Assembly (NCBI GenBank): GCA_910574455.1 | Contig: CAJSYZ010000009.1 | Coordinates: forward strand, 2,993,040-3,057,039 | DNA length: 64,000 bases | Reading direction: 5' to 3' | Source of the DNA: Trichaptum fuscoviolaceum | Lineage: Eukaryota; Basidiomycota; Agaricomycetes; Hymenochaetales; Trichaptaceae | Shown here: positions 22,336-48,428 of the stretch, in pieces | Layout of the letters: each line of letters starts with the position of its first letter | Numbering within the stretch: the first letter of the stretch is position 1 | Notes under the pieces: generated by a model | What the model was told of the DNA's origin: nothing | Seen by the model: only the letters and a program-made list of their open reading frames with translations | The model's database searches: none | Program-made: the position numbers and the translations under genes

Positions 22336-22406
22336 AGCAAAGTGTGGTAGAAAGAGAGAGGGGCGACCAATAATGACTGAAAGTTCTGTGAAGACATAAT
22401 ACTAAC

Positions 22407-22827
22407 ATCAGGGAAACTACTTTCTGCTGAAAGTGACTTAAGTGTTACTTAAACGTCCTGAGAGACTGAAGTCTTAAATAAGGCAAGCTTCACTTATTCA
22501 TGCATGTCCTCCCATTATTCAGGACAAGTTGGCTGAAATAAGTGCGGGCTGGCTTAAATAAGGAAAGATGGCTGAATCAGTGCTCTAAGTGTTTCAGGCA
22601 TTCAGCACCCCAGTGCTCCAGTGTATCATCCTTTAATTACAGCAGTACATAAGTGTTGTAAGACGAATTGCAGTGCTCAAGAGTCTAAGTGCATAAGAAC
22701 GATCCAAGTATTTCATTGCATCAGAAATATATAAGACAACATTATGTAGCTATCAGTGCCTCAGCGTTCAAGTACATCAGTCATTTACGCAAGACTAAGC
22801 ATAGCAGTCGCAATCATGGGATCCGCC
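22407..22827. repeat. left terminal and subterminal region of Plavaka-type element, copy 1
   Basis: About 420 bases almost co-linear with 52073-52482. It is dense in short words such as CAGGAC, CAGTGCTC and TTCAGG, as expected of transposase-binding subterminal repeats in CACTA-like elements. It is cut at 22827 by the hAT-like insertion and resumes at 25917. Confidence 0.7.
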
Positions 22828-23591
22828 CAATCACCACACACCATATGCTGCATCGTATTCTGTCATGACAGTGTATCCGATTCAATCCTTATTTGGAAGG
22901 GTATCCGATACTTTACCATATTTGGAAAGTGTGGTGCAAAATGTAAAAAAAATTGGGCTGGGATAGCGTTATATTCAAAACCTGTATTTACTATTACATG
23001 AGACTACTCATTTACTACTTACGATGGCGAGGCGTTCCATACGCATGTCTACCGAGTCGGCGGGCGCGGGCTGGGGGCTGTTCGATCTTCAACTTCTTCT
23101 CGTTGTCAAATCAAACTGCTGACACAAAGGCAGAATCAGCTAGGATGGGGCGCCAGCGCTGAAGCTGATAGGTATTGTCGACGAGAACGCGCTTGCTGAT
23201 GTAGGCTTCAGTCTTGATTTTCGGAGCTTCACCTTGTTTGCAACCTGAGTCCAGTTCCTGTAGTAAATTTCATTAACAAGCATACTTCGAAGGACAAGCC
23301 ACTTACACATCATTGAAGAAGATGCTATCCTTAGCATCTTTCATCGGGATGCAACGGTCAAGGTCCTTGGAAAGTAACCTTAGTATCAACGTGTAGGCCG
23401 GGTAGAAGTCTTTGCTGAACTAATTGGGAGAAAGAGTGTCGTCGAGAAGCCGTCCCCTGTTGATGGTTCCGATCACGGCCACGGAACAGATGCTGGAGGG
23501 TCAATCAGTGAGTGTCGAAGACCATAAGGATATGAATAAAACTCACTCTTCCAAAGGGGTGCCTCACCTACAACGCGCTCTCCGCCTTTGA

Positions 23592-24127
23592 ATGCCAATG
23601 CGAAATTCAGAGTTCCTTTCCCCTTCAAGAACAAAACAACCATTATCAGTGAAAGACTACATCTCTTCTGATAAAGGAGATAGGTGGACTCCGGGAATGT
23701 ACGAAAGGCTGGACGAGGATGGACGACGGGCAAGAGATGATGAGGCTCACCCGCGGCGCAGACGAGAAAGAAGCAGTGGTGGACATAACAGAAGAGGAGG
23801 CACCAGAGATTCATGAATGTCGACTTCAGCCGATCACTACAAGCCAGATCCTCCGGTCATAGACTCGTACGCCTCAATTCGAGATAGTGACAGGAGATGG
23901 GCGCCTCGGGACCGTGACTCTCGTTCTCCTCTCCGAGATCGAAAACGCGAGCATTCTCCTGCACGCACGCCTTCACTATCGCCCTCATATATACCTCGCC
24001 CGCCATCATCTCGCTCGTTGGCGCCTCCGACCCGCCCTTCGCGAGAACGGCCCAAGCACCGCCTTCCAACTCCTCGTGTTGCGGCAATAGTTTTGCCTCC
24101 AAGAATCGAGTACTCCAATGGTAGATA
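23592..24127 (+). pseudogene. Ser/Arg-rich gene fragment inside the hAT-like element
   Basis: Two adjacent open stretches (23592-23816 and 23817-24127), separated by a stop, are rich in Arg, Asp, Ser and Pro with RS-like dipeptides (DRDSRSPLRDRKREHSPAR). Such composition is typical of splicing-related proteins. It runs head-on into the kinase fragment, and the two overlap slightly near 24105. It is probably a captured fragment; it could be a composition artefact. Confidence 0.35.
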
Positions 24128-24720
24128 ACACCGACGGAAAAGCAGACAACCTTATACAAGAAGTGTTCATCGCAAGGCATCTTTGGTGCCATATACCCAG
24201 GAGTGCCTCACTCACCTGATGTATGACGCCAGAAGTCGTCGGTTCCCATAGCCTCAAAACCGTTGCCCATGATGTGTTGGAATACGTACCCTAGTCCAAA
24301 ATTGCCAATGGCTAATTGCCCGTGTTTGTCCAGAAAGATGTTCTCGGGCTTGATGTTGCGGTGGACAATGTTGTGATCCTGTATGATGTTCACGGCGTGT
24401 CAGCCGGAAGAACAAATTCGATCAGAGGAAGGAAGGACGTACAAGCTGTGCCATGAGGAACTTGACCTCGTGCATCCGGAATAAAGTCTTTGAGTAGTCC
24501 GTGGCGTCCCTCAGGTTGCCTCCAGGAGCAAGACCTTGTACGATCGTGAAATTGAGCGAATCTATGAAAAATTCTATCAAAGGGGGAGTTGTCGTCAAAA
24601 GAAGAAAGGATGCTCTTCTCTGTAGAGCTCCCGGTGCTCTCTAGCCACACGCGAGGTGCAACCGGAACTCGGAGCAACTTCAGTTGACCGTGGGAGTAAC
24701 ACGGTCTTGTGACTGTCAAA
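24105..24720 (-). pseudogene. captured protein kinase gene fragment
   Basis: Read on the minus strand: a piece of the N-lobe/hinge (IVQGLAPGGNLRDATDYSK), an intron, then the catalytic loop IVHRNIKPENIFLD (usual HRD changed to HRN), NFG in place of DFG, and, after another intron, GTPGYMAPKMP (APE changed to APK) and YKVVCFSVGVIYHW. These are kinase subdomains V to IX in order. Introns are kept, so capture happened at DNA level. The loss of both catalytic aspartates means it could not act as an ordinary kinase. The N-terminal glycine loop and the rest of the C-lobe are absent. Confidence 0.7.
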
Positions 24721-25828
24721 CAAGCACGCGTCAGTCATGTGCTTTGCATGAGGGCGGGCTCCATTTTTCCATTTATGGTATGATATGACCTGCCGAAGCC
24801 TACCCGAAATATAGTGATTTCAGTAACACTTAAGGCTTCCCGAAGGCAATTAACTACGCTTTCTCTTCCCCTTCGCCTTCTACATTGCTGCGGAAAGGTT
24901 TGTCTGTCTTTTTCTCAAGTACGACGGAAACTGATTCTTTGTGTGAGCTCAAGTGCCTCATGGATACGTCAAACTTCTTGCAACGCCTGTGTCGGACGAG
25001 GCCTTATTCGTGCCACCCGACTTACCGCCCAAGGCCTTGCAGACGCGTTTCACTTTGAAAGCAGCAGATGCCACCTGCTATATCAAAGCCCATTGGCTGT
25101 TGCCGACATCCGGGGTGTGGAACGGAAGTAGGTGAGTTGTGCACTTCAATGTCTATTTACATGGGTGGCACTATATGGAGACCTTCGGTCGGCTTGGCCT
25201 TCCTTGTGGGCTTGCCTAGGCGACTCATCAGAGGCTATGCCCCCCTTCGGTTGTGGGCTTGACTTGTCGGTCCCTAGACAACTCGAGTCTCTCTAGAGCA
25301 AGGGCCTTTTCAGCGAGCTCAAGGGTGGCTTCTCCCACAAGAACCTGCCAGCCCAAATTTTCACTATGGCATCCTTCGAGGAAGCTTTTCTTTTCAGATT
25401 ACAACAACAGAAGCAAGTGAGCGGGAGCGCAGGTACGAGTCTTGTGTAACTCTTCTTACATTTGTAAGTTTTGCCCCTTCCCTCTTCCAAGAGTTCTTGT
25501 CTGACCTTTTTTGCCCTCTGTCACTTTGAGCATCCGATGCAGATTAGCTGTCCGTTACAATTCAGGTATCCGATACAAGCCATGTATCCAACAATAAGTT
25601 AAGTATCTGTTACATCTCAAACATAATATTATGCTAATAATACCTCTCCTTCTGTTTCCTATTTCTCTCTAATTTTGCTATCAAATCTTTGATTTCTTGC
25701 TTTGTTGACTCTCCCTCTCACAACACAAATTTATTTACCTGTCTGTACCAAACTTTGCAACTTCTCCTGTACATATATATTTACACCTGAAATGACATGA
25801 GAAGATTCTACTAAATATGGCATTGAAT
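24721..25828. other. right half of the hAT-like element, no gene recognised
   Basis: No protein similarity is seen. The last 300 bases hold scattered copies of the GTATCCGATAC word, likely subterminal repeats. Confidence 0.4.
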
Positions 25829-26103
25829 CGGATACCCTTCCAAATAAGGAAATGAATCGGATACACTGTCATGACAGAATACGATACAGCTTATAAACTG
25901 AGGTGCCTGATCCGCCACGACATTATCCCGAACCTCTGCCGTGACGGGCAGTGGCAGGCCACATTTCGCTGCCGTGCCTTCAATTCTGCATGTTCTTTGG
26001 CGTACCAGTAGAAACGAAGGCTGCTCTGCAAGTCGATGCTAATATAATATTGAGCGCACGGACAGAAACGAAAAGAAGAGGCTCACCAGTGATCGATTTG
26101 CCC

Positions 26104-26179
26104 TTAGAAGTCTACGCAGTCTGTAGCCGAATCCCATTTTGAAGCGTCGTCCTCCTCATGATCACCATCTCCACCTAAA

Positions 26180-26210
<31 letters not shown>

Positions 26211-29200
26211 CCTCGCCCTTGCCCTTGCCCTCGCCCCCTCGCCCTCGCCCTCAATCTTGTCAACACCCTCGTCCCCGCTCTCGCTCAGGTTGTCGTCACC
26301 CTCAGCATTAGCATGCTCGTCCTCTGCATCACCTTCCACCTCGCCTCTATACTCAGCCCCCTCACGCTCTTCGCCCTTATCGTCGGTTCCGTCGGTTCCG
26401 TCTTCCCAATTATCAGCGCCTTCGTCATACGCTTTCTCGCAGGTCGAATCTGCATCTACAACGTCAAAATACAAGGAAAAGTCCCTGCCAGTGATACCCG
26501 ATCCAACAAGTTCGGTGTTCTTTCTCGTATCGATATCTGTACTGGCATCGTAAGCTAGGAGGCGGGATCGAACCTTTTCCCAGTTTGATTCAGTGAAGAA
26601 AGAGGGATTCGACAACAAGTTAACATAGTCGTCCGTATGAGGCTGCCACAGAGCGCTAGTGAAATACCACTCAGCGCCGCCAAGTTCTTCTTTGATATTT
26701 TGCAACCGAGCCACCTGTTTATCAATGGCAACCTTGACCTATCCATGAGAAGATCAGCGAATAAGGACAATATAAGTACTGAAAAAATAGATACCGCTGT
26801 TGCCGCAAGGGCGAGGGCACCGATAGGCTTTCCTATGGTGTTTCTGTCCAGTATTTTATGCCGACCCATGGCCAAGACAATGTGTACGGACAACACTGAG
26901 ACCACAAGGTCAGAGCAGAACAGTCCTTGCTTCTGTACATTTAGGGTCAATGCATGGACACAAAATGTGACAATAAATACTCTTTTACTTACCCTCTCCA
27001 TACTATACCAGCTTTCCCATAGAAACGGTTTGGCTTTCTTCTTGTCAACTAGCGTCTGCAACATCTTCACAATTGCTTCGTTTTGCATTGACTTTGATTG
27101 TTCGCCGCTGATAAAACTAGCAACTGATTGCTCAGCTTTCTCAAACAGCTTCTTGCGCCAGCTATCAGAGCATCTCTGGGCCGCCTGAAATACGAGGATT
27201 GCATCTCAATTTGGTAAAGGTGATTTGAGAATAAGTAAAAATGACTCAACTAGAGAACAGATATCGGCGAACTGAGTTTCGTAAATGAGTTCCACAGAAT
27301 CAAACACTTTCCCCCACAATGAGCTGATGAGCTTATTGTCCGGGGTTTGCCATGGTGTGACGGACTTTCCAACTGCGCGAAATAGTGAAGGTAATAGAAT
27401 ATGAGTCCATCCTGCCTGAGTACCGGGAGGGAGACACTGGTTCGTCGCCCTTTTCCTGCCTGGCACGCGAGATCCTTCCCTTCCTTCATTTCGATCCTTG
27501 TCCTCAAGTCCCACTGATGTCTGCATATACGTACATCAGCAAAATATGTCATAGAAATGAATTTGATTCGACAAACTGAGCTAGTAGTCCGAGAGACTTT
27601 GCGATGACCTTGATAAGCCCCAGTCACTATCACTTCGGGTCCGGGGGTGCGGGACGCTCTCGTCATTGCAAGCGACGGTGCTCGAGGTGCTAACGACATC
27701 TTTCGACCACCAGACTATTAAGAAAAGAAGGTGAATGCTCACGTTTAGAGTGTATCAATCAACTCTCACTTACTTCATTATCAGCCACCAGCAACTGCCT
27801 CTTGCGATTAAAGGTAGCGGATCCAATCTCCGGCTGCAACACGTCAGAAAGCTGTTATCCATGGCAAGTGAGCAGATCGAAAAGAAGCACTTACCGTCGT
27901 GTCAGCCTCAGGCCGATAAGGAATATCAGAGGGGTTCCTCTTCTTACTCAAGTCCTTTCCGCCTGATCAGATACGAACTTGAATGCCAATTACCATAGAA
28001 TTGACACTTACTGTGGCACCGGCCTGTGTGTCCATGTCAATCAACAATGACTTATTGATCTTGACAGTCTTATTAGCCTATTGAGATGGTTTAAATTAAG
28101 TAAACATGAAATGAAGGAATTCATTGCACGTGAAGGTAGAAGAATTACCACATTAACCTGAGAGTCGGTGTCTGGTGGCGACTTCCTCTTTCCGTTCTTT
28201 GTGACTGTGATGTCCTATTCATATGCACACATTAGCGATCGACTCGAAGTGAAGAAGGAAACGAATAGTTGCTACAGGAGAGCACCGGAAGTGAGCCTAC
28301 GGTGCATCGACGCTCACACATACCTGTACACGGGGTTCCAAAGCTAGTGATCGCACCTTACAACCATAAATAAGGGGGGGAACGAGAGAAGTTGAAATAA
28401 GATAGACTTACCGGTGCGCTAAGCTGCGAGTTAGCAGTCCTCTTGTTTGCATCCTATGCAAATACCAATTCAGCAATGAAGGATATAGAATGAAGATCAC
28501 TGTGCTTCGCTGTCTGGCACTCACCTGTCCACCTGGTTTTATCTCGTTGTTCTTATCCTCGAGTACGGGAAGGGATTGCTTAGTAGAATGAAAAATGAAA
28601 AATGATATGACATTGCTTACCGTTGAAACCTGCGACCCGGAAAGAGTGTCATGCAATAACTTCCTTTTCTTCGAGTTGAGGTTGCTGCTACCTCCATCCT
28701 GTTCATGACACGGCAGTTGGCAGATAAATAATAACGAAGGGATATGAACAAACGGTCATGGAGTAACTGACGTGAATCGAACAGAAATAAGTCGTACTCA
28801 CACAAGCTTGAGCCGGCCTTGTTAGCCTCTTCGGATTGCTTCCGCCCTATAAACAAGTTATTCAGACTGCATTTGCCATTCTAATTCTCCGTCAACTCAC
28901 AACATTTGATTCCGAATCGACAAGATGTGCCTTCTGTTGCACACTGATTGTGCTATTTTTTACACCATGATAGCTTGTAAGGGTGATTGTTTCTCCTTCA
29001 TCCTCCCAGGGACTTAAGTTTTCATCATCTGGCAATGAGATGGTGTGTCTGGTGTAGCTTTGCGTCAGCAAGGCTCATAATACAGTGGTAACAAGGACAA
29101 GAGCGTCAATATTGCAGGTGAAGGACTTCCAAGTCGGGTCTTGGCCCGGGAGCGTCACGGTCAACTTGAACCGCTGGCACCGTGACCGCAGTAACACTGG

Positions 29201-30357
29201 CAGCCTGAGTGGCAGGCTCAGTAGTAATCTAGTACTACTACTAGTAGTCGGGATGATGTTTAATCGCACTCACCATTACATTGACTTGACAGTACAAGAT
29301 ACTGATTCAGACGCAATGCAAGATTCAAACTTCAAACTCACAAATTGATCCTTTCTGAGTCTATCCCTGCCACTGGCACCTCAAGACCTCCACCCTCTTC
29401 ACCGATGAAAGTGGAATCATCTGTGTTGCGAAGCGCCCTGACAGGGCGTTTTGTCTTGTCGTTCCGCCTTGACGTAGCGGGCGAGTCTATTATGTCCGTT
29501 TCTTCACCAGAAAGACTCTCGTTCGGTCCTGCAGGAGCGTGAAAGAATGCGTCGCTGGGAGTGGCGGCAGACCTGGACATCTTTGCGGTCTGCACACGTG
29601 TGCGAAATGAAAGTTCACCTTTGGAATCTTCTTTCCTAGCTTTTTTTGCAGGCTTCCTGTTTGGCTCATCCATACTCGCTGCTTCGCATTAACGTGAGTC
29701 ACAGGGTTCAACCTCCAAGCTTTGAGATCGTCTGAAAATGTATAGGCAATGTTACTCACGAATATCCAAGTCTTCGTTGTGTCCATCTTCACAATCCGAT
29801 ATGTCTTTAACATCGTTCTTCGAGTCTGTTTATGCCAGTTCAAATCTGTGTCATCACTGATCTAAAGTTGAAGACTTACAACTAGCTTCGCCTTTTGGCT
29901 TTCTACGTCCACGTTTGCCAGTGAGTTTGGGCACTGTTGAGCCCATCTGGGTGCGTGTCTCAAGAGCCTTCGACAAGTTGTTTTCAAGCTCTACGGTCTC
30001 TAGCATCGCTGCTTCTTGGTTCTCTGCTGCAGTCACCTTCTTGCGAACCTTGTCAGCTGCCTCTTGTTCTTTTGCTGCCCGTTTTTGCTCCGCAGCATGT
30101 TTTCTCCTCTCTTTCGCAACCGCGACTTGCTGGGCCGCAGCTCTGCGGAAAGCTGCCCGCTCTTCCTTCTGCTTTTCCTTCTCTTCCTTCTCCTTCAATG
30201 CCTCATCCCGCCTTTCTGCCTGCCGTACTTTCCTTTTCTCTTTTTCTTCCTTCTCCCGCAATATCTCCTCCTGTGTTCGTCTTGTTCTGAGTTGGTCAAC
30301 GACTGCTCCGGGGTGCTTTTCCTTGTTCTTAGCCCTTGTCTGTCTTTGAGTTGACAT
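26104..30357 (-). CDS. Plavaka-associated accessory gene, copy 1 (multi-exon)
   Basis: It starts at the ATG 30357. The first exon encodes about 160 residues of highly charged Lys/Glu/Arg coiled coil (EKEEKEKQKEERAAFRRAAA) ending in KRGRRKPKGEAS. There follow many small exons with basic, Ser-rich sequence (about 29700-27730), then a folded-looking part: LLPSLFRAVGKSVTPWQTP, WRKKLFEKAEQSV, KPFLWESWYSMER and GKPIGALALAATAV. It ends in an acidic tail, ASKWDSATDCVDF, with the stop at 26104. From memory the folded part resembles the DUF6532-type proteins common beside such transposases in mushrooms. Function is unknown; it is transcribed divergently from the transposase. A repeat tract at 26180-26245 shifts the frame before the tail, so the ORF read straight through stops at 26175. 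Exact exon joints are not all resolved. Confidence 0.6.
26180..26245. repeat. short tandem repeat in the accessory gene tail (copy 1)
   Basis: Repeats of CCTCGT and CCTCGC type. On the minus strand they read as Arg-Ala/Arg-Thr, Glu-Asp/Glu-Gly or Gly-Arg according to frame. The equivalent tract in copy 2 (52750-52850) differs in length and sequence, so this is a slippage site. Confidence 0.8.
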
Positions 30358-30629
30358 TTTGTGCAGTGTTTTGAGACTTGTATGATGATAAGATGTGTCG
30401 AAGGTGCAAGTTCAAGATCAGGGAGGCGGGGGCGTCTATCTTAGACAAGTTGAAAATTTACACCCACTACTACCGTGACTACTCTATGACTAATTTTAAC
30501 TCAGGTTCAAGTTCACTGGCACTCCGAGTCCGAGTCACTGCCAGTGCTAGCAGCCTGCCAGTGCCAGTGAGGCTCAGCTGTGAGTCCCAATTGTCAACGT
30601 GTACTACTACTGAGGTTACATTCAAGTTG
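30358..30629. promoter_or_regulatory. divergent promoter region between accessory gene and transposase, copy 1
   Basis: 272 bases between two outward-reading starts. It is packed with short words (CACTGGCA, CCAGTG, CCGAGTC, TACTACTAC, GTTCAAGTTC). The corresponding 225 bases in copy 2 (56895-57119) share both edges but have a different set and order of these words. Confidence 0.55.
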
Positions 30630-33600
30630 ATGCCAGCGACACGGAAAAAGCACGATCCCTTTCATTTTCCACCAACTATTCGATGCACCTTGCCTGGCTG
30701 TAGTAGGACGTTCAAGAGTCAATCTGGAAGAGCAAGACATGAATATTCAGCTCATCCGACGTCATTCTTGGCAAGTTCTTCTGCTTGTGGTCATGAATAT
30801 GAATCGTCACCTATTCGACCCATACGAGCTCCAAGTCCTCAACTTGAAGCTCTCCTGAGGTCGTCCGAACTTCCATCAGAGGGTCATCTTGAGAGCGGCT
30901 CTGACTCCTACGATTACGATATTTCCATGCTTACACAGGATATCTCGATGCTCAGTATAGGCCGAGACGAGCTGCTTCAAGATTTGGACAGACCTGATTC
31001 TCTGTCCCATTCTGTCACCGGAAGTGACAGTGGCCGTTCTGAAGACTTGGATTCCGACATTGGAGATTATGAGGAGAGCGAGGATAACTTGAAGGTGTAT
31101 CACAGATACTTGAATGGTGCGCGCCAAATCAATTGTTCCCGGTTTACTGTAGCATTTTGACATCAAACATTGTGCAGCCACTCCATGCGATGCAGAAGGG
31201 AACTTCTTAGAATACGAAGACTCACCCGCTCCGCGAAACGAATCTGCGTCAAATGACTGGTTTCCATATTCGTGCCGAGCAGATTTTGAGCTCGCAGATT
31301 TTCTCTATCGGGAAGAGCAAATGTCTGCTGGGAACATAACAAAGCTTCTGGGAATCATGAAGGCTTATCAGCTGATTCAGGAGGCGGAGAATGTAAAATC
31401 TTGCGGATGTTCCGAATTGGATGCGACATTGCCTGACGATGACTTGGATCTGGGTTCAACTAGTACGCTACTCGATGGAGATGCGCAAAAAATGTATAAC
31501 GCCATTGATGCTACGAAAGTCGGTGATGTGTCTTGGAAATCCTTTAGTAACTTCTACACGGACGATCATAGCCAAAAGGCAACAAACGAGAACACCGAGT
31601 CATGGAAGAGGAAAGAATATGATGTATGGTATGGGATCCTTTGGAAGTGATCCGGAATTTGGTGGACAATCCGGCGTTGGAAGGCGAATTCGACTATGTC
31701 CCGTTTCGTGAGTATCAGCCGAAAGAGGACTCTGATGACAACAAAGAACGAGTCTTCAGAAACTACATGTCCGGAAATTTTGCTTGGGAACAGGCTGTAA
31801 GTCATGAATCATGCAGCATTCGAAGTTGGAGGAAGTGTACTGATTATCCTTGACTTAGAACAAAATCTACGCCGAAGATAAAGCAGTTCATGGGTCCATG
31901 TTCGTTCCGGTAATTTTAGGGAGTGACAAGACAACAGTTTCCGTTGGAACTGGCAACAACGAATATTATCCGTTATATCTCTCAATAGGAAATGTATCTA
32001 ACAAGGCCCGGCGGTCCCAAAAGTTGAATACAGTCCAGCTCGTAGCATTTCTAGCAATACCAAAGAGTGTGTGTCAAAAACTGAGCTATCCATTTGTGTT
32101 CTGATGCTTTGCAGCTGAACGGCAGTACGAAAAGTCGGATGAATTCCGCCGCTTTCGACATCAAGTCTTTCATTCATCTATATCGAGAATCTTGAGACCA
32201 CTGAAGAGCGCAATGTCCATAAACAACGAACAAACCATTTTCCGGTGCCCTGATGGTCACTTGCGTAGGTCGATTCTCGGACTCGGCTCGTATATAGCCG
32301 ATTATCCGGAACAGGTGAGTCTATGCGCAATATGCACTGGATGGTGCTGCAAGTAAGTATTGTCCTTTCCACAAATCACATCCGACTTGAGTTCGAGGAA
32401 ATGGCTTAATGCGGCTACTATATAGATGTACAGCACCTCACAAGAACCTAGATAATCCGGAATTTGTTACAAATCCTCGAACAAAAGAGCTGCACGAACG
32501 ATTGATAGAACAGGTGGATGACAATAGCATAAGTAGAGCCACAATTCATAAGGAGTATGGGTTCCACCAAGATATCGTCGTATGTGTTCCAACTTCAAGT
32601 TGTCCATTAGATGCACTTACCGCAACTTGAACTATGTCCCGTAGCCCTTCACCAATGATTTTCCGCGTGCAGATATATGCGATCTCATTTCTCCAGACTT
32701 ACTGCACCAAATCATCAAAGGCGTGTTCAAGGATCATCTTGTCGAGTGGATTTGCCAGAGCATGACCACGACAGAGCTGGATATTGTGGATAAAAGGTAC
32801 TATTCCCTTACAAGTCATGTGAATACCACTGCTAACTTTCACGTAGAATCAGAGTTGCTGCTCCTTTTTCTGGACTTCGCAGATTTCCCGAAGGTCGAGG
32901 CTTCAAGCAATGGACAGGTAATGATTCAAAGGCACTTATGAAAGTATGTGGTATTTTCATCATGATCTTGTTTGAGGTGGTGGTTTGCTGATATCTGATG
33001 CAATCCGCTTACTAGGTGTATCTTCCGGCTATTGTGGGCATTGTACATGATGATATAGTTCACGCATTGAGTGCATTTCTGGACTTCTGTTACCTTGTGC
33101 GTCGGTACACGATTACAGCCTCAACTCTTGATCAGGTTAAAGCCTCCCTGGATCACTATCATCAATATCGCAAAATATTCATAGCTAAGGGCATCCGGGA
33201 TAACTTCTCACTTCCACAACAGCATGCCATGATTCACTATCCTACAATGATCCCTCTCTTCGCTGCACCAAGCGGGCTGTGCTCATCAATCACAGAGAAT
33301 AAACACATTTACGCGGTCAAGGAAACGTGGCGACGCTCAAACAGAAATGATCCTTTAGGTCAGATGATCACAGCAAACCAACGTCTCAGTAAACTTATTG
33401 CATCGAGGGCAGACTTCAAGAGGCGTGGAATGCTGGAAAGTCCTCTGGCTGAGGCTTCATGGAGAGCTTTGCTAGATGTTCTGCGCAGGAATATGTCAGA
33501 GTCGGAGTCAGATGACGCTGAGAGGACCCAAATTCGGAAGGAGCAGATGCAGCATCAAGATACACCCGAAGCTGGTGCAGCTGATGATACAGAGGACTTC

Positions 33601-34628: not shown

Positions 34629-34855
34629 TTACTAAGTTAAACTCTTCCGTTAGCACATTGCCACATAGTACTACAAAGTGTATTGAGACTTGTTGTACAG
34701 TTTACATTGCCAGAGCCAGCGGCGACAACATCATGGTATTCATTGTTCGAGGTAATATAATTATCAACAAATCTCAAAGCAACAAAAGGAGAAACTGGAG
34801 ATGCAAGCATACTGTGTCCATTGTCAACCCACCACCTACGAGAGGGCTAATTCGG

Positions 34856-37100: not shown

Positions 37101-37883
37101 GGTGGGATACCCATCATTCCGACTCCTTTTACGATCTACAATTTAGTTATTGTCAGAACCAACAAGGGCGTTCGACTCAAACTCAGGCTCACCGGACATT
37201 TTGAAAAAAACTGTGACTTGAAGCCTGATAGGAGGTTGTTTCGCTTTCTCCAACAGCTTCAAAATGGAGTTAAAAAACTGGTGCAATAGTATAGTAGCTG
37301 CGAGCCTACCAACTCCGAGTCCGACTCCGAGTCGTCGGAACCGAATAGTAGTATCTTGAACTTCGGTTCAAATTTAGAGATCAAGTTGCCAATATACTAG
37401 TAGTAGTAGATAGTACTACTCAGGCTACAACTTGAAGTTTGAAGATCTCAGTCAGCGGATGAAGTTAAACTAGGAGACTGGTTGACTCACCGCCAGCCTG
37501 AGTACCGCCAGTGGCAGCCTCTGAACTAAAATTTAGGTGGCAGGGACTTCGACTTTAAGGTGAGAGGGCTTCAAGCTGTTGAAAAGAACAACCTTGAGTA
37601 CTACTAGAGTACAGTACTACAGAGTATAGTAGACAAAGACACGATACGTCGATGCCACTGGCAGTGGGCATGGGGTAGTCAGGCTACTAAATGCGGAACT
37701 TGAATCTGAACTTGAAGCCAGACTTCTCAGGCTCACGCCACTCACTGCCAGTGCCAGTGGCAGCCAGAACCGTGCCAGTGACGTCTTTCCCACTGCATTC
37801 TTTCCCATTTCGTCCCAATAGTACTACCTATTCATCTTGAACTCGAAAGCACAACAGCAACGACTTCAACTTGAATCAGCATC
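37101..37883. other. gene-free stretch dense in palindromic words
   Basis: No coding sequence is recognised. The stretch 37300-37800 is crowded with short inverted words: CCGAGTCCGACTCCGAGTC, TACTAGTAGTAGTA, CACTGGCAGTG, CTCAGGCT and GAACTTGAAG. It may be the shared upstream region of the third gene and the protease gene. Confidence 0.5.
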
Positions 37884-39239: not shown

Positions 39240-39780
39240 CCTGAGGACTCAGGCTTGTACTCAAACTATTTCTAACTGTTTTCTTTTCGTAGTATTACCT
39301 CATACCAGTGCATACCACTAGTATTCAAGTTGTGTCTTTGTATGTTTGTCTCCTGTTCTGTGTTCGTCGACCTTATACTTGTGTTTTCTGTGCATCGGTA
39401 TTCAAGTTGTTGTATTCTGTATGTAAATAAAAAACGATATGAATTGTTTACTAACTATTCCGAGTCGGACTTGGACTCACTGGCACCAGTGATGCTCTAA
39501 TTACTGCCCGATAAATTCACGACTGGCTCGAATCCGGGTCTACCAACCTGAAGACCGAACATCGTTACGGGTCACTGTTCGGCAACTTGAACTTTTGAGC
39601 TGAACTTGAAGTCCCACGACTCGGTCTCAGGCTCTGACTCGGAAGTTCTTCCGATTCGGAGGTCAGCTTGAAGTCGGAAACTACTAGTACTAGTAAACTA
39701 AGCCTGAGGGGCGAAGGTCGGTCCGGCTACTACTACAACTGCTCTGCTCAACAACTATTAGGTATAATAATTTTAATGCA
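39240..39780. other. gene-free, palindromic words
   Basis: Downstream of the protease. 39460-39740 again carries words such as CGAGTCGGACTTGGACTC, CACTGGCACCAGTG and CTACTAGTACTAGTA. Nothing coding is recognised. Confidence 0.45.
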
Positions 39781-39999
39781 ATGACCGGTTGTTATTCTCG
39801 GGACGTTCTAGGTCAGAGGGAACTGGACGGCTTGACTTATGCTATTGCCTTCTGGCAGACGACGGAGGAGCTGGAACAAATGGGCTTTGCGACCAACCTT
39901 GATTCAAAGACAGACACGCAACTTGGTAGTATTGTTTTCCCGACTCCGAGTCAGCAAGAGCCCGACGTGGACATCGCCGCTCGCCTTTTCCCAGACTGA
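39781..39999 (+). pseudogene. fragment of a second serine protease copy
   Basis: 72 codons, with DGLTYAIAFWQTTEELEQMG matching the region HDGFTYGVPIWQQLSEM that follows the active-site serine in the protease at 37884-39239. No other part of the domain is present. It is a remnant of a related, not identical, gene. Confidence 0.55.
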
Positions 40000-40602
40000 G
40001 CCCCTTCCTCAACTCCCCCACCATGCGCACAAACTCTCTCATCTCATCCTCTTGCACTACCTTGAGGCTTGTCATTTTCTTCAACCTTGGCGCTGTCTCC
40101 TTCACATACGACATCTTCCATGCGCTGCTCTCCTGCACTTTGTACTAAATTATGTCGTAACAGATCTGGGCGGAATGGGAGACAGAGGTCTGCACGAGCA
40201 TGGCACAGGAGTTCAAGGCTGGTGAGTTTATTCTCCTTCTCAATCCTTTTACTTCACGTTATTTACATACCATTTGATACAGAATCCTAGCTCACACCGT
40301 TTACAGCGCACGCAAGATGGTGCAATTCTGGAACACCGCCAGACAGTACCACCACCATTGCCATCGCACTCCTGCTACTAGTAGTACCCAGCATCGACAT
40401 GATGACTTCCCACGTGGGGTCTGACACTGGCATCACAGGCCCTCCGTCGTCCGCTACCACCACTGACAGCCATGGTCAGGTTGGAAACTAGAGACTTCCG
40501 GAGACACTTTCATTGTTGTGGGGACTGGTAAGTAGCCCTAGTAGTTATCCGCTATTGCAACAATAGCTCATGACCCGATGAACACAACTACATGACTGGC
40601 TG
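40000..40602. other. no gene recognised
   Basis: Spacer upstream of the BCS1-like pseudogene. It contains one CTACTAGTAGTA word near 40376; nothing else is recognised. Confidence 0.35.
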
Positions 40603-41640
40603 ATGCTATGGTTGTTGAAGCGCTTAGAATGCCAGCACGCTTACGAGTTCGAGACGACAGCGCGCACCATCTTGCCGGGCAAGTCTTCTTTCAGAGACAA
40701 GTCATTCAGAGATGAGGAGCTCAAAGGCTTCCAGTTTGCCTCACCAGACGACCATCAAATTCATATCTATTTCGCTGATTCCATGGCTCATGGCGGGGAT
40801 TTAAGAGATGCTCCTTGCCGACACAAGGGACTTCTTGCAATCAGAGAAGGTATGTACATAAAGTGCCACACATCGACTGAAAGTTTAACCTCTCTTTCTG
40901 AATCAGTGGTGCGCTGACCGTGGTAACCGCTCTCGTCGCGACAATTTCCTCTATCGTGTCCCTGGCTTGGGCAGATCATCATTGATCCATGCCCTTGCTG
41001 GCGCGCTCATGCTCGACATTCTCGCCATCTCACGTTCCGCCTTTTGGATGAACAATGTGGCGTTGTCGTTGCTTATGGGCCGTGTGCCTGCCCCGTGTAT
41101 TGTCCTTCTCGAGGACCTTGATGCTGCATTCACTCGCTCAACTTCGCGCGACGGGTCCTCAACCTGTGTTCCTGGTGGTAAGAAGAAGAGCTCTTTGTTG
41201 TCCGACAACAAGGATAAGATGACGATGATGACGACAATGAAGAAATTGGCAAGAAGAAGAAAAGCAAGAAATATGACACTCTATCCGACGTGAACACGCT
41301 CTCTCTTTCTGGCCTTCTTAATGCACTTGATGGTGTCGCCGCTGCTGTTGGCCGCTTCCTCTTCTCGTCGCAGCGACGAACCATCTTGAGCGTTTCGACC
41401 CCGCGCTCTCGCGCCCCGGTGGCATGGATGTTTGGATCGAGTTCAAAAGCGCAAGCCCTAGGCAGGCTCAAGCGCTCTTCTGCGACTTCTTCCTGTACGC
41501 GGACGTCAAGAAGCCCGAGATCACCAAACGCGAAGGCGAGCTCGATGGGATCCTCCTCCCCACCACACCCCATCCTCTGGATCGATTTCGGAAATTCCGG
41601 TGTCGGTATTTGCGTCCGATGCCTCGAGTACCGCAACCTT
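40603..41640 (+). pseudogene. BCS1-like AAA ATPase, degenerate
   Basis: Pieces in all three plus frames line up with the mushroom BCS1-type family (membrane-linked AAA ATPases related to the mitochondrial complex III chaperone). In order: LLKRLECQHAYEFETTART (start), GLGRSSLIHALAGALMLDI (Walker A, with Arg for the essential Lys), GRVPAPCIVLLEDLDAAFTR (Walker B, acidic pair present), LSLSGLLNALDGVAAA (second region of homology), then MDVWIEFKSAS in another frame. At least three frame changes and the loss of the Walker A lysine show that it is not functional. The C-terminal part of the AAA lid is not found. Confidence 0.8.
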
Positions 41641-42551
41641 GAGCTCGAGCTCATTGATGAGAGGTGCGTCAAACAGTCTACCTGACGTTGGCAAAGCAGC
41701 TCACGACGCAAATTGCGAATGCATCAAACGGGAAAAAGTATTACTTCATCTTAGATATCGTTCAAGTAGTCATGTCCTATTCCTCGACAAACACCTCTGT
41801 GCCACCACCATTGCCGCCGAAACGGAGATCGCTCGGTTTCAATATGCAGAATAAGTCGATTATCGGCCGACAGCGCAATCCCCCCAGCTCTAAGGTCAAG
41901 AAACGTGCCTTCATTCAATCTACTTCTTTCAAAGCGGATTGGGGTGCATTGATCCCATTTCCCATATCGGCATGGTTCCGGTTTCGAGTTGTGTCCAGGG
42001 ATGACTGATTGTATGACGGCTTACTCGTGGCTTTGCCTTCTAGAGCTGATGGAACAGCTTCTTGTGCAGTGGGCTATGTCTTCCTGACTTCTTCGGAGTT
42101 AACCTGACTCACTTTCTTGTTTGTTTGTGCATAAAATGAAAAGAAGCCTCATAATCGAGTCATCTAGAAGAAATCCTTCTTATCTCCTGTCAGTTCAGCT
42201 TGAGGTTTATCCGAGCCATAGTATAATGCACTGATAGATTCCTCTCTTCTTTTCCCAGAAGAATAAGGCATCAGAAAAATGCGTGCAAGAGCTTTGTATA
42301 AATGTGAACTCGGAGTGGGTGTCGCCCCTCCCCGCCACCCACCCACCCATTCAACCCTTCGCCATGAACTTTTATCACATTCTGTTGGGGCTACACATGC
42401 TCCTATTGATTGACCATGCTGTGCTTCGAGTACGCATCGCGCGAAGACTTCCTTGGACACAAAGGAGGATATCTAGGATGCAAAAATTCGTGCTTACTTT
42501 CTATTTCCTCTCAAAATCACTGCACTGACTTTTTGCCAGCTTCACAAACAG
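41641..42551. other. no clear gene
   Basis: An open frame at 41664-42008 (plus, 114 codons, Pro-rich middle) follows the pseudogene, but I do not recognise it. The rest holds the promoter side of the exonuclease-like gene. Confidence 0.35.
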
Positions 42552-43410
42552 ATGCAACATCTCCTCGACTACCTGGGGGTTCCGCCAACGCCTCTTCTTC
42601 AACTTCGCAGTTATACACTCGGACCTCTTGTTCCTGAAGTATGTCTGACCACCGCGACGATGGAGAATGCCGTAGACGTCATCTATGCTTCCTTGCCGGA
42701 TGCCCCGGAACGACGCTTCGTTGCCCTTGACATTGAATGGGCGAGTAACTCACCAGAGCTATATCGCGTGGACCTCATCCAACTCGCGGTTCAGCAACAT
42801 GTGTTCCTCCTCCGGACTCATCTACTTAATGAACTTCCCGCGAGATTGACACAATTATTAGGTGATGAAGCTGTATGGAAAGTGTCAGCAGGAATCGCTG
42901 GTATGAGAGTCCCATTTCTTCTCTCATTATTCGGCATAACTGAACTAATTGGCAGGTGATTGCAACTCGCATCAGGAATAAATTTGGCGTTCCCGTAACC
43001 TCCTGTGTCGATTTGACAGATTGGGCGCGCTTCGTTTACCCCGATTTCTGGCCAAGAACGCTAACTTGGCTCCAGCTGCTTCTGAACCCCCGTCTCTGGT
43101 TCAAGTTTCCGCAACCGTTTATAAAGCTGGAGGAGATGGCGGGCAGACTCCTGCAGACAAACATCAAAAAAGATGTCTTGGTCACGATGAGCAATTGGGC
43201 CGAAGTTGAGCTGTCGGCTGCTCAAGTCCATTGTAAGTTATCCTTTTCAAGTTGTCACTCAGGCTGACCATCTTCTCACTTGCATCTGCTCTATTAGATG
43301 CGGCAATCAACGCGCACAGCACGTTTGCTGTTGCTTCCGTCTTGAATCAAGATGCCTTGGCCTTACCGGATACAGTAATCCATCACTTCCCAATGCTCGA
43401 TATTGAGTAG
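42552..43410 (+). CDS. DEDD 3'-5' exonuclease-like protein (RNase D/WRN type)
   Basis: Proposed exons are 42552-42900, 42956-43232 and 43298-43410, about 245 residues. The first exon, from MQHLLDYLGVPP, contains RFVALDIEWAS, the Exo I motif with its D-x-E metal ligands, then VDLIQLAV. The second has SCVDLTDWARFV, and the last junction builds LSAAQVHYAAINAHSTFA, which corresponds to Exo III (Tyr present, the usual Asp replaced by Asn). Such enzymes trim RNA or DNA 3' ends. The join of exons 1 and 2 is off by one base, either a one-base insertion near 42960 or an alternative splice site. With the Asn substitution, activity is doubtful. Confidence 0.6.
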
Positions 43411-43662
43411 GCTGAGGCCCGTTTGAATAGTGCTAACGGTGTTATCTTGTTGAGTAAATTGTTGAGTGTATGCTCTTGTCTTCAAAAGTTGCCAGGAGCA
43501 TCGTGATTGTATCGATTATTATATTGCTTCTCATTGAATGATCATTGTAGACTGAGGTTGTCAATGGTGTTTGCTGTCGCTTTCAGGATGTCATGAAGAT
43601 GAAGGTAGCTTGAAATCTCAAAACAGAGGTTCAAGTTCACTTGAGTACAGTAGTGGTAGTAC

Positions 43663-44292
43663 AGTGTCGGAAGGTCAAAACCCGCCTCTGGGTGCAGGCC
43701 GGAATTTTGCGTCAATGACTGAGATTTCAAAATTCTTGTAATAGAAGTAAGGAAGATACGTTGATTTCTGCAATAAAAAATTTTCCGGTACATGTTTCAA
43801 AATTTTTGAAGAAATTGAAAAAGTTTAGTCGAATTTTAGTCGCTATTGACCTTGGATTGACTGGAAATACAAACAGAATTGTTTTCCGAGACTTTCTAGA
43901 AAGTCTGTAATTAGGGTTTAATGCTTGAGGCTCCCGGACGAAAGTGTCCGGGTGGACCGGGAAAAAGAAGAATTCCGGATAGAATTGGTAAAACTTGCCA
44001 AACTATTCCACCAGGAAGTCCGGCTTGCAAAAAGATATCGTTTCCGTATATTCCGAAGCCGTGGGAACCTCTTAAAAGGGCTGTATTACTAAATTAGGTA
44101 GCAAGTTTCAAAATCCTGGTATGAGAAATTTTTCGGAATTAAATTCAAGCAAATCTAATCAATAAGAATGAAAGATATAATGCATTAGAAGCTATTTACA
44201 CAGTTTCAGGGTCATTGGCAAGTTTTTGTGATCGGAGAAAAAAACGTTTTGAAGGGGGTTTCCGAGAGGCGGGTTTTAGCCTTCCGACACTG
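43663..44292. mobile_element. 630-base MITE
   Basis: It begins CAGTGTCGGAAGG and ends with the inverse; the inverted repeats match for about 26 bases with two mismatches. It is flanked by TAGTA at 43658-43662 and 44293-44297. There is no coding capacity. The superfamily is not assigned: a 5-base TAGTA or 3-base GTA duplication are both possible readings. Confidence 0.75.
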
Positions 44293-44322
44293 TAGTAAAT
44301 CTCACTTGAGTCTGACTTGCCG

Positions 44323-44447
44323 CCTGTCACGAACCAAACTGGGAAATAAGGCACTGAACTGGGATTTTAGCCATTACACTAAAAGAGCCGTGTTGTCAGG
44401 TTACTGACAACTGTTCCCAGCGCTATTTAAGGTGTTCAAACATTAGG
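44323..44447 (-). repeat. SINE-like repeat, copy interrupted by the MULE-like element
   Basis: 125 bases nearly identical to 47932-48056. On the minus strand it includes TAGTGTAATGGC, similar to a pol III A box. The sequence continues on the other side of the MULE-like element at 47724. Confidence 0.5.
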
Positions 44448-44479
44448 CCAAAATAGGATTTCAGCACCTCAATGTACCT

Positions 44480-44940
44480 ATCTGACATCTGACACCCATT
44501 ATCTGACACCTGGACACTTGAAATGTATAACTGACCCATATAAGAAGTAAAATCCAACCTCCGTTAGATAGAATATCTGACAGTTGGAGTATAAATATCC
44601 AACAATTGGAGTATCTAATTCTGACAGAATAAAGTATCTAAATCCAACCCCTGTAAAGAATGTATTTCCAACACCGCAGGTTTATCATTATCTGACCCCT
44701 CAAATAACACAATTCCAACCCGTATTAGAGGTAATTTCCAACCTATCTGCCCATAAAGTATATATATCCAACACATCTGTAGTATCCATATCCGACCTCC
44801 TGTAGTATTCAATTGCAACCCATCTGGAATGTAAATTTGACCCTCTTTAATATGTATTTCCGACACTTTTTAAAGTCGAATTTGGACATACTTCAGTATG
44901 TAAATCCAGCCCAAAAAGAACTTAATTCCAACATCTTTCT
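44480..44940. repeat. left subterminal array of the MULE-like element
   Basis: Degenerate 20-25-base units containing TCCAACC, CTGACCC or CCAACA separated by AT-rich spacers; inverse of the array at 47235-47700. Confidence 0.75.
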
Positions 44941-47234
44941 CACGTCATTCTGTAAAGCTTTGTATAGCGCCGTCAGAGCTAATTGCCCCCAACACAAACA
45001 TGCATTAATTTCAACGCTATTCCCACTACAAAGGTGGGTAGTACTATCATACAATGTATTTGGTTCCTTTACTTAGCAGAAGAGACAGAGAAAATTTCTT
45101 GATATTGAACGGTCTCGTAGGCCACCAGGAATTCCGAGTGGCAGGCGCGGTGCAATGCTAAGCGCAGCAGCGAAGATTTTGTTACAACAAATAGAGTATA
45201 TATTCTAATAGGTCGAAGCAGTGATAACCAGCCACTCTTCGTGTGTATGGTAGGTCACAGTCCCACAGAGCGAGGCCAGAGTGGCAAGAGCAGACTGTCC
45301 AGGAGTGGTGGTCGTCATTGCAGTCTTGGGAGGAGTCTTTGCGCGGAGAGCTGGAATCGTGAGCGCAAGAACGTGTGCGCGTAGTGGACAACCTTGACAC
45401 CGACGAGACTGAGCCTGGCCTAGGTGCAGTCTGTCTGGTGAAACCTTGCAGCATTAGATCTGGCCTAGATCTGCAGCTGATGAGTGGGTCGATTGACTGG
45501 TCGCCGCTTAGATTCCGTTGCTAGACTTGAGACTCTTGAGACCTCAGGACGGGGTGGCTCTACTCTTGATAACTTCTTTAATGCTTTGCTTTCTTCGGAT
45601 ATGTGGCTGCTGATCGCTTTTGATCACTGTTACAAGAAGTTAGGATGTCGACGTGAAACAAGAAAAAGGTGCACGTACGATCTCAAATAGGAGCAGCAAG
45701 TAGCAAATTTCGTGCAACACGGGACTTGACACGACGCTCGCGAAGATCCTTGTGGAAGGAAACTGGCAAACAAGAGGGTGCTTGGCACTGGCCCAACAGA
45801 TCGCATGTATCGTAGGTCACTGACAGGCAAATGTCAGAAAGCCGAGGAACTGTCGTGGCAGAAGCGTAGCGGATGATTAACGAGGTTGCTCAATGGACGC
45901 AAACTCGGGTGTGTCGGTACTTGCACCAGGATGGATTTTGACGGTCAAAGGGAGACTAGATGGCAAACTTCCTACACTAAGGGTGAGAAAGATAGCAAGC
46001 AGATAAGAGAGGGAGTGCTCACGTTTGCAGAAGTGGTTTGCCACTTAGAAGATTGGACTACACTGCGTTTGAGGATAAGAATGGTATTCAAGAACAGATG
46101 TATAAGAATATGCTTACGTTTTCGGAAGGGGACCTGCCGTCCAAGCTAATGGACCCGAGGCATACACTAACTCTGAAGTTCAGTAAGCTATCGAGCGTCG
46201 AAAAAAGTGCGGCCTACGATGTAATGAAAAGCCTCTGCTATACTGGCAATGTGGAGCAAACAATGCCAACTCATTTGCCCCGCGAGTAGCGCCAGCAAGA
46301 ATCGTGACGGAGGATATGCTGGAGCGGCGGAGGCAGAGACATAGATTGATGATGAACAAATCGATGGATGGTCGTCCGGGGTGCATCGGAAGCATCACCC
46401 TGCGCGCTGGGTAGTCGAAGGAGGCGAATCAGTCGACAAGCAGCACAAGAACTTGGCGGACGTTTTGGGGGTTGGGGTGCTTGAGTATCGAGAACTGGGC
46501 TAGTCCTTCCACTGATCGGGTGGCACGGACAGCGAGAACAAGAGTGTTTTCTATTCAGGTTCAGAGGTCGAATGGAAGGTGGTGTCGAGCAGTCACCACT
46601 CAAGTCAAATGGTGCAAATAATGACGAAGCAGAGAGTCCGAATCACTGCAAAGCGATGGGCGAAGTATACGCGGAAGTTAAAGTGGTTGGGGAGATGCTA
46701 TAGCTGACGAGCATGTCGATTGAAGTTCCTTGGAAGTAATGAAACATGAGCAAAGAGAGAGAAGAGAGAAGAATAGCACATACCATGTCAGGTTACCCAA
46801 TCACTGGCATCTCAAGCCTTGGCAAATACTAGCACTTGACTTGGTAGCTGGTAATATCACTGACATATGGGGTTGTCCTTTGAGTGGCTTCTCATCGGAC
46901 GAATAAAGATCTCCAATGGCGTCGGTTTCCGAAAAGATACTTATAATCCCGTCGGTCTGGGATTAATCTTCGGTTGGGTCGCAGTCAGGTGGGCTGTTGG
47001 AGAGCTCCGGTTCTCCAGTTGACATAGTGCACCCGACAACTATCTGCGTCTCGAGAATGATGTATGTGAGGCATACCTCATCGACCTTGCATCCCAGTTG
47101 GCGCTGCTCAAGCGCACACCGTGTTTGAGATAAGCAAGACTTTCCGATATCGAAGTGTGAACATCTTTGGAAACGAGCGGAGGGAAATCGTGATCATCGC
47201 TGCTGTTGTCGTGAGTGAGGTCTGAGGTTCGGGT

Positions 47235-47700
47235 ATACAGAGGGTTGGATTTGGATACACCGAGGGGTCAAAAATAGATTCTCACGAGGGTCACATACAT
47301 GTACTTTACGGTGGTCAGATAATGGTGCTATGAGGGGTCAGAAATCAATACTCCGGGGGTTGGATTTACATACTTTTGAGAGGTCGAATTTGCATACTTT
47401 GAGAGGTTGAATTTAAATACTTTGAAGGGTTGGAATTGGATGCTATTAAGGGTCAGAAATGCATACATTGGAGGGTTGGATTCTTGTAAATGCCGGGGTT
47501 GGATTTAGATAACCCAAATTGTCAGATATTGATTCTCAAATTGTCAGATATTATTTCGCAAGTTGTCCGATATTACTTTTAAAATGTTGGCAATAGCTGT
47601 TATAATTGTCAGATTTATGTATTATAAGGGGTTGGATTTATATAAGTCGATGTGTCAGATTATGATAAAACGCGGGTCAGATAGGTACATTGAGGTGCTG
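47235..47700. repeat. right subterminal array of the MULE-like element
   Basis: Units such as GAGGGGTCAGAAAT and GGGTTGGATTTA, facing the left array in inverted orientation. Confidence 0.75.
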
Positions 47701-47714
47701 AAATCCTATCTTGC

Positions 47715-48075
47715 AACATTAGGATTTCTCCAAATCCTAATATTACCTCCCTCTCAAAGACCCCCTCCCGCCGTCGGGAGAGGACACCTTCTCGAAATAG
47801 CCGCCCCCCACCCATTTCCCTTTTTGGGTGTAAGCCAAGGAACAGAGAGGACCCTCCGTGGCAATATTAAGAATCCGTCATTAATATTGCACACCCCGGG
47901 ACTTGAACCTGTGACCTTGTTAACCTGACAACCTGTCACGAACCAAACTGGGAAATAAGGCACTGAACTGGGATTTTAGCCATTACACTAAAAGAGCCAT
48001 GTTGTCAGGTTACTGACAACTGTTCCCAGCGCTATTTAAGGTGTTCAAACATTAGGATTTCTCCAAATCCTAATA
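47715..48075 (-). repeat. SINE-like (tRNA-derived) repeat
   Basis: On the minus strand GGTTCAAGTCC (47909-47899) is a good pol III B box and TAGTGTAATGGC (47990-47979) an A-box-like sequence, though the spacing of about 70 bases is longer than in tRNA genes. Both ends carry the same hairpin (10-base stem ATTAGGATTT, four-base loop; 47718-47741 and 48051-48074). No poly-A tail was seen. It could also be another small non-coding repeat. Confidence 0.45.
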
Positions 48076-48428
48076 CCGCCTGATGTACAGCTTCCCTCCT
48101 TACGCACTGATTTTGTCCTGAAACGCCGTTTTAAGGCCATCAGGCAGCCAGGCAACACTTCAGGCAGGCATGACAACGCTTCAACCCATTTAAGGAAGCT
48201 TCAGGACGCGCCAGCCGCCGTAAGCAATCTCTGATGTATTACACTTGAGCACTGAAATCCTGACTTGCATTCTGATGCACTGAGAGACGGCTTGCATCCT
48301 GAAACACTCCTTATTTCAGTGAGATAAGGCAATCAGTGTATTTTCAGACGAAGTAGCGACCCTTCAGACAGGTGCCAGCCAAATCAGGACGCGTCAGTCG
48401 CCGTAAGCAAAAGGAAGTTTCCCTGATG
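48064..48428. repeat. right terminal and subterminal region with Plavaka-type end
   Basis: It ends AGTTTCCCTGATG, the inverse of the 22407 and 52073 termini. Inside it, CAGGACGCG followed by CGCCGTAAGCAA occurs twice (about 48202 and 48385), along with repeated CTTCAGG and CTGAAA words. It is either the right end of the 26-kb element or a separate MITE. Confidence 0.55.

Follow-up and report, generated by a model that had tools for sequence, protein, structure and literature searches.

A PlavakaB-group DNA transposon of Trichaptum fuscoviolaceum with probable passenger gene pieces and a hypervariable third gene that appears to be exchanged between copies

The DNA analysed here, called the window throughout, is a stretch of 64,000 nucleotides from the basidiomycete Trichaptum fuscoviolaceum (C9:2993040-3057039 of an assembly of 59.09 Mb in 12 contigs). 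It contains a candidate DNA transposon of the PlavakaB group, element A (22406-48428), and most of a second copy, element B, which starts at 52071. Three copies from elsewhere in the genome serve for comparison: el17, the reference copy (17,175 bp, contig C3); LR20, a related copy with a left and a right terminus (20,639 bp, contig C4); and LL20, a copy of a lineage with two left-type termini (C4:4513786-4533836).

Element A is flanked on both sides by AA, a 2-bp target site duplication (22404-22405 and 48429-48430). Its left end (22406-22827, plus strand, 422 bp) starts with the terminus CATCAGGGAAACTACTTTCTGC, is 98.6% identical to that of el17, and is found at 98-100% identity in 40 scored places, itself included. 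Next to it lies a nested insertion (22828-25908) that is absent from el17 and has an 8-bp target duplication, GATCCGCC, and an 82-bp subterminal inverted repeat. Four genes follow. Gene 1 (26175-27205, minus strand) consists of conserved open frames to which no function is assigned; its ratio of non-synonymous to synonymous divergence (dN/dS) is 0.22-0.58 in 8 comparisons, some of them across indel regions. The accessory gene (29854-30411, minus strand) encodes a charged protein of 185 residues, coiled-coil-like by eye, with 90-97% amino acid identity between copies and a dN/dS of 0.22-0.70. The Plavaka transposase (30630-34628, plus strand; PF18759) has several exons and a C2H2-like N-terminus, the latter a sub-threshold match. 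The third gene (34856-37142, minus strand) has intact frames of 460 and 309 residues. Beyond these genes, three host-like pieces lie on the plus strand: the 3' remainder of a protease-like gene with a GDSGS motif (38214-39239), a fragment of a BCS1-type AAA ATPase (40582-41642; Pfam AAA at 1.2e-6, BCS1 in the PDB at 4.7e-12), and a WRN-type exonuclease-like fragment (42477-43267; a weak PDB match to WRN at 0.023). In a second block of nested DNA (43662-48075), 4414 bp replace 28 bp, and the first ~0.63 kb carries 36-nt inverted arms. The right end (48076-48428, minus strand), with the terminus CATCAGGGAAACTTCCTTTTGC, is 99.2% identical to that of el17 and has 41 matches in the genome.

Comparison with el17 indicates what is native to the element. 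That copy is colinear with the window over 22405-22827, 25909-35399, 35493-36668, 37134-37744, 38978-43661 and 48076-48428, with 96.6-99.2% identity outside a variable tract, and related copies measure 17.2-20.6 kb. An earlier note on this DNA had proposed a single, very large Plavaka-class element with these two ends, a transposase, an accessory gene, a third gene and younger insertions nested inside. Its outline is supported, the insertions amounting to ~3.1 kb (22828-25908) and ~4.4 kb (43662-48075); the 26 kb that it gave as the size is not the native length, having been inflated by that nested DNA.

The two ends are an inverted pair, as the note had claimed. In the window, CATCAGGGAAACT occurs at 22406-22418 (plus), 48416-48428 (minus) and 52071-52083 (plus); the left terminus thus starts one base before, and the real third terminus two bases before, the positions first given (22407 and 52073). 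Three such matches are insignificant by themselves (with up to 2 mismatches, at least 3 occurred in 26 of 100 shuffles). The extended ends, on the other hand, are not chance matches. A similarity of about 27 bases with related subterminal words had been suggested, and the ends of element A indeed agree at 21 of their first 27 bases and share 66 8-mers past them (500 single-base shuffles gave 7.7 on average and at most 32). The left end also aligns with 52071-52482 at 86.6% identity over 432 columns, an alignment that had been suggested as a check. In the genome, 22-nt patterns of the left and right termini, with at most 1 mismatch, match 338 and 168 places, respectively; the reversed patterns, used as controls, match 0.

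How these termini pair was analysed on contigs C1-C4, which hold 87 left and 62 right termini. Neighbouring ends that face each other no more than 62 kb apart are left-right in 37 cases, left-left in 13 and right-right in 0; random positions under the same test give means of 6, 4 and 2, and none of 2000 shufflings of the end types left right-right pairs at 0. Certain spacings recur: 9 pairs are 17.15-17.22 kb apart, and on C1-C4 there are 3 pairs at 20.6-20.8 kb and 6 left-left pairs at 20.04-20.18 kb. Identical 2-bp flanks are present in 11 of 12 fetched end pairs, element A's own among them, and matching 2-bp flanks also enclose el17 (CA), LR20 (TA), LL20 (TT) and element B (CA). The search for other copies with the same two ends, which the note had also called for, shows that paired ends recur and that el17 and LR20 are colinear with element A. 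Left-left pairs were considered as elements with 420-bp inverted repeats, and this was rejected for LL20: its final ~186 bp match the right end at 96% identity, the left-type sequence being limited to the terminus proper. At three fetched loci, left and right termini stand back to back, 0.2-0.7 kb apart (C7:1062264/1062468, C4:1609308/1609999 and C7:3108103).

These data also bear on an alternative raised in the note, a separate small element at 48064-48428 as the source of the right end. It would be non-autonomous, and the element starting on the left would end elsewhere. Such an arrangement would fit the findings that the two ends share only their first 23-27 bases plus subterminal words and that 25 of the 62 right termini (as well as 24 of the 87 left) lack an adjacent facing partner within 62 kb. 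However, the inner edge of the supposed small element, 48076, is simply the boundary of the nested DNA, and in el17 and LR20 the homologous DNA runs on inward. The prevalence of left-right over right-right pairs and the matching flanks of 11 of the 12 pairs point the same way. Colinearity and end pairing contradict the small element in the case of element A, and it is exceedingly improbable. Among the copies inspected, none consisted of 48064-48428 alone with its own duplication and none stopped after the third gene, although no dedicated search for such copies was made.

Element B provides direct evidence that ~20 kb inserted as one unit. It runs on the plus strand from 52071 to the end of the window at 64000 and on to window coordinate 72469 (20,399 bp), has the target duplication CA/CA, and lies in an F-box-like gene. 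When its flanks are joined and one CA is removed, an open frame runs across the junction. The restored frame resembles the minus-strand frame 20328-21302 on both sides (35% over 52 amino acids upstream, 67% over 15 and 12 amino acids downstream; E 5e-12 for the set). The interrupted frame is therefore made whole by removing the ~20 kb. The F-box-like label derives from sub-threshold Pfam matches in the neighbouring frame 21640-22401.

PlavakaB, a group found in Agaricomycotina, is defined by duplications of 2-3 bp and CATCA..TGATG termini (Kojima 2025, PMC12730594). Such termini are present at 22406 and 48428, and also in el17, LR20, LL20 and element B; the duplications are 2 bp, and a Plavaka transposase domain is present. 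Of 8 transposase pieces scanned, 5 match PF18759 (Plavaka), at 5.5e-27, 3.8e-16, 4.4e-12, 4.6e-12 and 1.1e-4, the last below the curated cut-off. Together these five cover model positions 3-325, though not continuously; the remaining 3 gave no Plavaka match. Some PlavakaB families are described as encoding a TET/JBP dioxygenase (PMC12730594), for which no Pfam match was found among the scanned frames, which covered part of the frames. The mobile core appears to encode gene 1, the accessory protein, the transposase and the third protein. The transposase would be a DDE enzyme of the EnSpm/RAG-like kind that cuts at the CATCA..TGATG ends and generates the 2-bp duplications; the ends and duplications are observed, and the chemistry is that expected from the family.

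Two kinds of result weigh against a single transposon with these ends. The 2-bp flanks do not match in one of the 12 fetched end pairs, which lies on C7 and spans 39 kb. A search of the same genome for an empty site of element A returned only its two flanks and a stretch partly related to the left one (74 bases, 91%). Likewise, no empty site for the 12 end pairs or element A was present among the sequences fetched. Together, the evidence indicates that 22406-48428 is very probably a single insertion of a PlavakaB-group DNA transposon of 17-21 kb, later enlarged by nested insertions, an explanation that includes the passenger gene pieces and the exchanged third gene treated below. This copy is probably dead, given its nested insertions and a transposase that, compared with el17, is frameshifted by one base near 31640. 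If every terminus were paired, the family may amount to ~250 copies (168 left-right plus ~85 left-left), and on C1-C4 not all are paired; at 17-20 kb each, ~250 copies would make up some 7-9% of the 59-Mb genome.

The host-like cargo genes described in the note are present as protease-like, BCS1-like and exonuclease-like pieces, but judged by their sequences they look like decayed fragments rather than working cargo. The frame of the BCS1-type piece is broken alike in element A, el17 and LR20, and its P-loop reads GLGRSS, so that the lysine of the canonical GxxxxGK[ST] is out of place. The exonuclease-like piece has no Pfam match. The protease-like gene is longest in LR20, has lost its 5' part in element A and is mostly deleted in el17, the deletion junction of which is found at 26 genomic places. 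We call it protease-like on the presumption that its GDSGS motif is that of a protease; Pfam gave only sub-threshold matches to Peptidase_S32 (0.08 and 0.19), and the LR20 piece had no match in the PDB and none in a protein homolog search.

A different host gene is represented in the other lineage. LL20 carries pieces of an alpha-1,3-glucan synthase near its right terminus, one with a GT5 domain (1.4e-8) and the others presumably from the same kind of gene. One piece, of 251 residues, has 21 full-length copies at 99-100% identity, 18 of which contain no stop. It has 171 matching stretches in the genome; among those listed, about two thirds are at 48-85% identity, many with stop codons, and the family looks expanded and partly decayed. 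This piece lies ~0.3 kb from the right terminus of LL20, and by our count 13 of its 14 copies on C1-C4 have a listed left-type terminus 299-350 bp away.

The idea that the host-like genes are functional cargo benefiting host or element, in the manner of Starships, could draw on the stop-free, nearly identical copies of the glucan-synthase piece and on the open frame of 341 residues in the window's protease piece. Yet recent spread alone explains the high identity of the copies, the synthase is only partial, and the broken BCS1 frame with its altered P-loop, the unmatched exonuclease piece and the truncated protease gene with its widely repeated deletion junction all argue against function. Working cargo is quite improbable. 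Rather, the pieces (BCS1-type ATPase and exonuclease-like in one lineage, glucan synthase in the other) would have been captured in the interval from the transposase block to the right end, then copied passively as passengers. As in gene-capturing transposons with terminal inverted repeats (TIRs), pieces of unrelated host genes lie between the ends and have relatives elsewhere in the genome (BCS1 and glucan synthase). BCS1_N matches 8 stretches elsewhere, which we infer to be host genes. A single host locus as the source of both BCS1 and exonuclease was rejected; the only PF01612 match (C7) is on a different contig from the BCS1_N matches.

The most variable part of the element is the third gene. 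Element A and el17 are 96-100% identical in every comparable 300-bp block except across ~34795-37194, where identity falls to 61-92%. Against LR20, identity is 49-69% over ~34795-37790 and 85-100% elsewhere, the lower of the latter values lying mainly in the C-terminal part of the transposase next to the tract. Sliding identity equates the variable tract with the third gene, 34856-37142. The third protein has a variable N-terminal part (encoded with 42-bp repeats at 36833-37009), a short conserved joint and a helical C-terminal part. Its C exon shares 26-31% protein identity among element A, LR20 and LL20 (up to 34% by another alignment). Between element A and LR20, the third gene is 28% identical in amino acids, and the accessory and first transposase pieces are 94-100% identical; the latter pieces have 94-100% identity within the family of element A and 80-100% between families.

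Genome searches show discrete types of the third gene, binned by us as T1 to T6; a few rows are intermediate (e.g., C1:448548 at 61%). T1, the type of element A, has 14 full-length rows at 95-100% identity. T2 has 16 full-length rows at 71-73%, and T3 has 8 at 44-45%. T4 (LR20) has 9 rows and is 33% identical to the third gene of element B, which defines T6 (3 full-length rows at 99-100%; the C exon in element B, 61573-62889, minus strand, is intact with 439 residues). T5 (LL20) is mostly 75-76% identical to T6. Overall, the types are 26-78% identical in protein, and the backbones are mostly 93-100% identical in DNA. In a tree of 10 third proteins, the types separate with strong support, T4 on a long branch. 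Stop-free rows make up 13 of the 14 full-length T1, 14 of the 16 T2 and 7 of the 8 T3. The T3 copies on C1, C3 and C4 are enclosed by no listed terminus pair, so T3 may belong to another transposon family.

Backbone markers indicate that these types move between element copies. Marker D, the deletion in the protease region, is present at 26 places, and marker U, the undeleted sequence, at 24. Each marker place was crossed with the nearest third-gene rows, an assignment of our own in which some copies lack both markers and some of the T1 copies were pieced together from rows of 82-99%. The result was 22 D with T2, 4 D with T1, 22 U with T1 and 2 U with other types. Two of the four D copies with T1 were retrieved, each with switch points near 34.9 and 37.1 kb. 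Inside 34899-37133, they are 87-100% identical to T1 and 50-96% to el17; outside it, 94-100% to el17 and 96-100% to element A. The nine elements of 17.15-17.22 kb comprise three with T1 and six with T2. These several lines argue that the third gene is swapped between element copies as a cassette, being kept, it appears, as several very different types. Two observations detract from so simple a picture. The two recombinants are almost equally close to either parent upstream of the cassette (99 versus 100%); the downstream side of the exchange is fixed by the D deletion, and the upstream side is only weakly marked. In addition, the C-terminal transposase exons differ between element A and LR20 (79-81%), and thus in some cases the variable tract reaches beyond the third gene and some exchange tracts are longer.

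Positive selection on the third gene is significant in one pair of types. Over 434 codons, the C exons of T5 and T6 (LL20 versus element B) show 127.8 non-synonymous against 16.2 synonymous differences, a dN/dS of 2.42 (bootstrap 1.52-4.33; one-sided Fisher 1.6e-4) that becomes 3.15 and 4.11 without codons near gaps. In at least this pair, then, the types would diverge under positive selection. Several results temper this reading. The same pair's transposase, with 0.026 non-synonymous (pN) and 0.035 synonymous (pS) differences per site, has a ratio of 0.72, and its last exon has 13 non-synonymous changes to 1 synonymous, so that constraint is not strong there. T1 and T2 give 1.07-1.31, not significantly above 1, and distant type pairs 0.45-0.71. 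Values above 1 also arise outside the third gene: 1.53 in one transposase exon of element A versus el17 (22 changes) and 1.52 in the protease piece of element A versus LR20. Within types, the third gene gives 0.82-1.26, and the other computable transposase comparisons give 0.15-0.61.

The third gene might instead be under no special selection, the variable tract being old between-family diversity shuffled by recombination. T1 and T2 conform to this: their dN/dS is near 1, and their synonymous divergence of 0.11-0.14 exceeds the 0.02-0.05 of the transposase exons of element A and el17, where measurable, so that exchange of older variants is needed there anyway. T5 and T6 do not; their synonymous divergence resembles that of the transposase (0.030-0.055 versus 0.035), and their non-synonymous divergence is about five times higher. 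That most full-length variants have stayed free of stops also speaks against neutrality of this kind, and we consider old diversity as the whole account unlikely, though a serious contender.

Searches of Pfam, NCBIfam and PDB sequences with the third gene gave nothing above cut-off, the best being ZW10_C2 at 0.011 in 2 of 10 members. An AlphaFold2 model of its C exon is almost all helical (predicted local distance difference test, pLDDT, 62; predicted TM-score, pTM, 0.64); Foldseek matched it at best at E 0.64 in the PDB and 0.044 among viral models, with TM-scores of ~0.1 that are not meaningful. No sequence or fold match from these sources gives the protein a function, which weighs against the explanation as a whole. 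A profile search of proteins returned one homolog among the best 7998 candidates scored, P0001, which is 99% identical to T4 and therefore probably comes from this species or a very near relative. The literature searched, part of it in excerpt, contained no description of a hypervariable Plavaka gene.

A role in conflict is nevertheless our best-supported guess, because the variants stay open and change fast. Conflict with host silencing would be the leading reason for the variation, though at somewhat less than even chances; conflict between element copies is a less probable second. More specifically, the third protein could counter silencing in a sequence-specific way, as VANC does for VANDAL elements, with every type matched to non-coding motifs of its own. 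VANC proteins are reported to differ in target specificity and to clear silencing marks from their own elements (PMC5735166, PMC10398659). In the carriers of T1, T2 and T4, however, the ends are 95-99% and the other backbone mostly 93-100% identical. No partner motif that differs with the protein is evident outside the cassette, and the sole tandem array within element A (score at least 150) lies in the third gene itself. With the rest of the carriers' DNA so alike, this mode is disfavoured and seems improbable. A bolder reading, to which we give somewhat less than an even chance, is that the third gene is a multi-type locus owned by the transposon. A single genome would hold six or more discrete types of it (T3 in elements without identified ends); near-identical copies would trade them whole, positive selection would drive them apart, and the locus would serve as a recognition or counter-defence module. 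If so, its dynamics would be comparable to those of allorecognition or immune-evasion genes, with a transposon as the owner. With its exchange and rapid change, the third gene opens an arms race, or rivalry among the copies within a single genome, to testing.

Elements A and B lie in or beside a cluster of several related F-box-like frames on the minus strand (947-22401 and 51742-52070; by eye and from sub-threshold Pfam matches). Between the two elements, at 48985-51690, is a 2.7-kb foldback-like element with inverted arms, each containing arrays of the 11-bp unit AGAACATCTGC. Gag and pol frames at 2869-7948 belong to a long terminal repeat (LTR) retrotransposon that we take, from its motifs, to be of the Gypsy type.

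Pack-type CACTA and other plant gene-capturing TIR elements likewise amplify host gene fragments between transposon ends; the present element differs in being a transposase-bearing fungal Plavaka of 17-21 kb. Starships, the cargo giants of Pezizomycotina, have a tyrosine recombinase as captain; the present element has a Plavaka transposase instead. They are the best-known large cargo-bearing transposons of fungi (PMC12134995). In Marasmius oreades, Plavaka DNA elements are prominent in a mushroom genome and the transposable element library contains elements as long as ~42 kb (PMC8290104, PMC9674265); the passages concerned describe neither a hypervariable gene nor gene capture. Published PlavakaB elements have a Plavaka transposase and CATCA..TGATG termini as well, with duplications of 2 or 3 bp where ours are 2 bp, and a TET/JBP dioxygenase in some families (PMC12730594); the elements found here have host gene pieces and an exchanged hypervariable third gene.

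The third gene itself invites comparison with non-transposase proteins of other mobile elements. We know of no cassette exchange of discrete types in ORF1p of LINE-1, which moreover belongs to a retrotransposon. With its coiled coil, ORF1p is nonetheless a fast-changing, non-catalytic protein of a transposable element (PMC5940361, PMC7449397). The VANC proteins of Arabidopsis VANDAL elements differ in that no co-diverging non-coding motif is evident in the Trichaptum elements; what they share with the third gene is that a non-transposase protein of a DNA transposon diversifies between copies (PMC5735166, PMC10398659).

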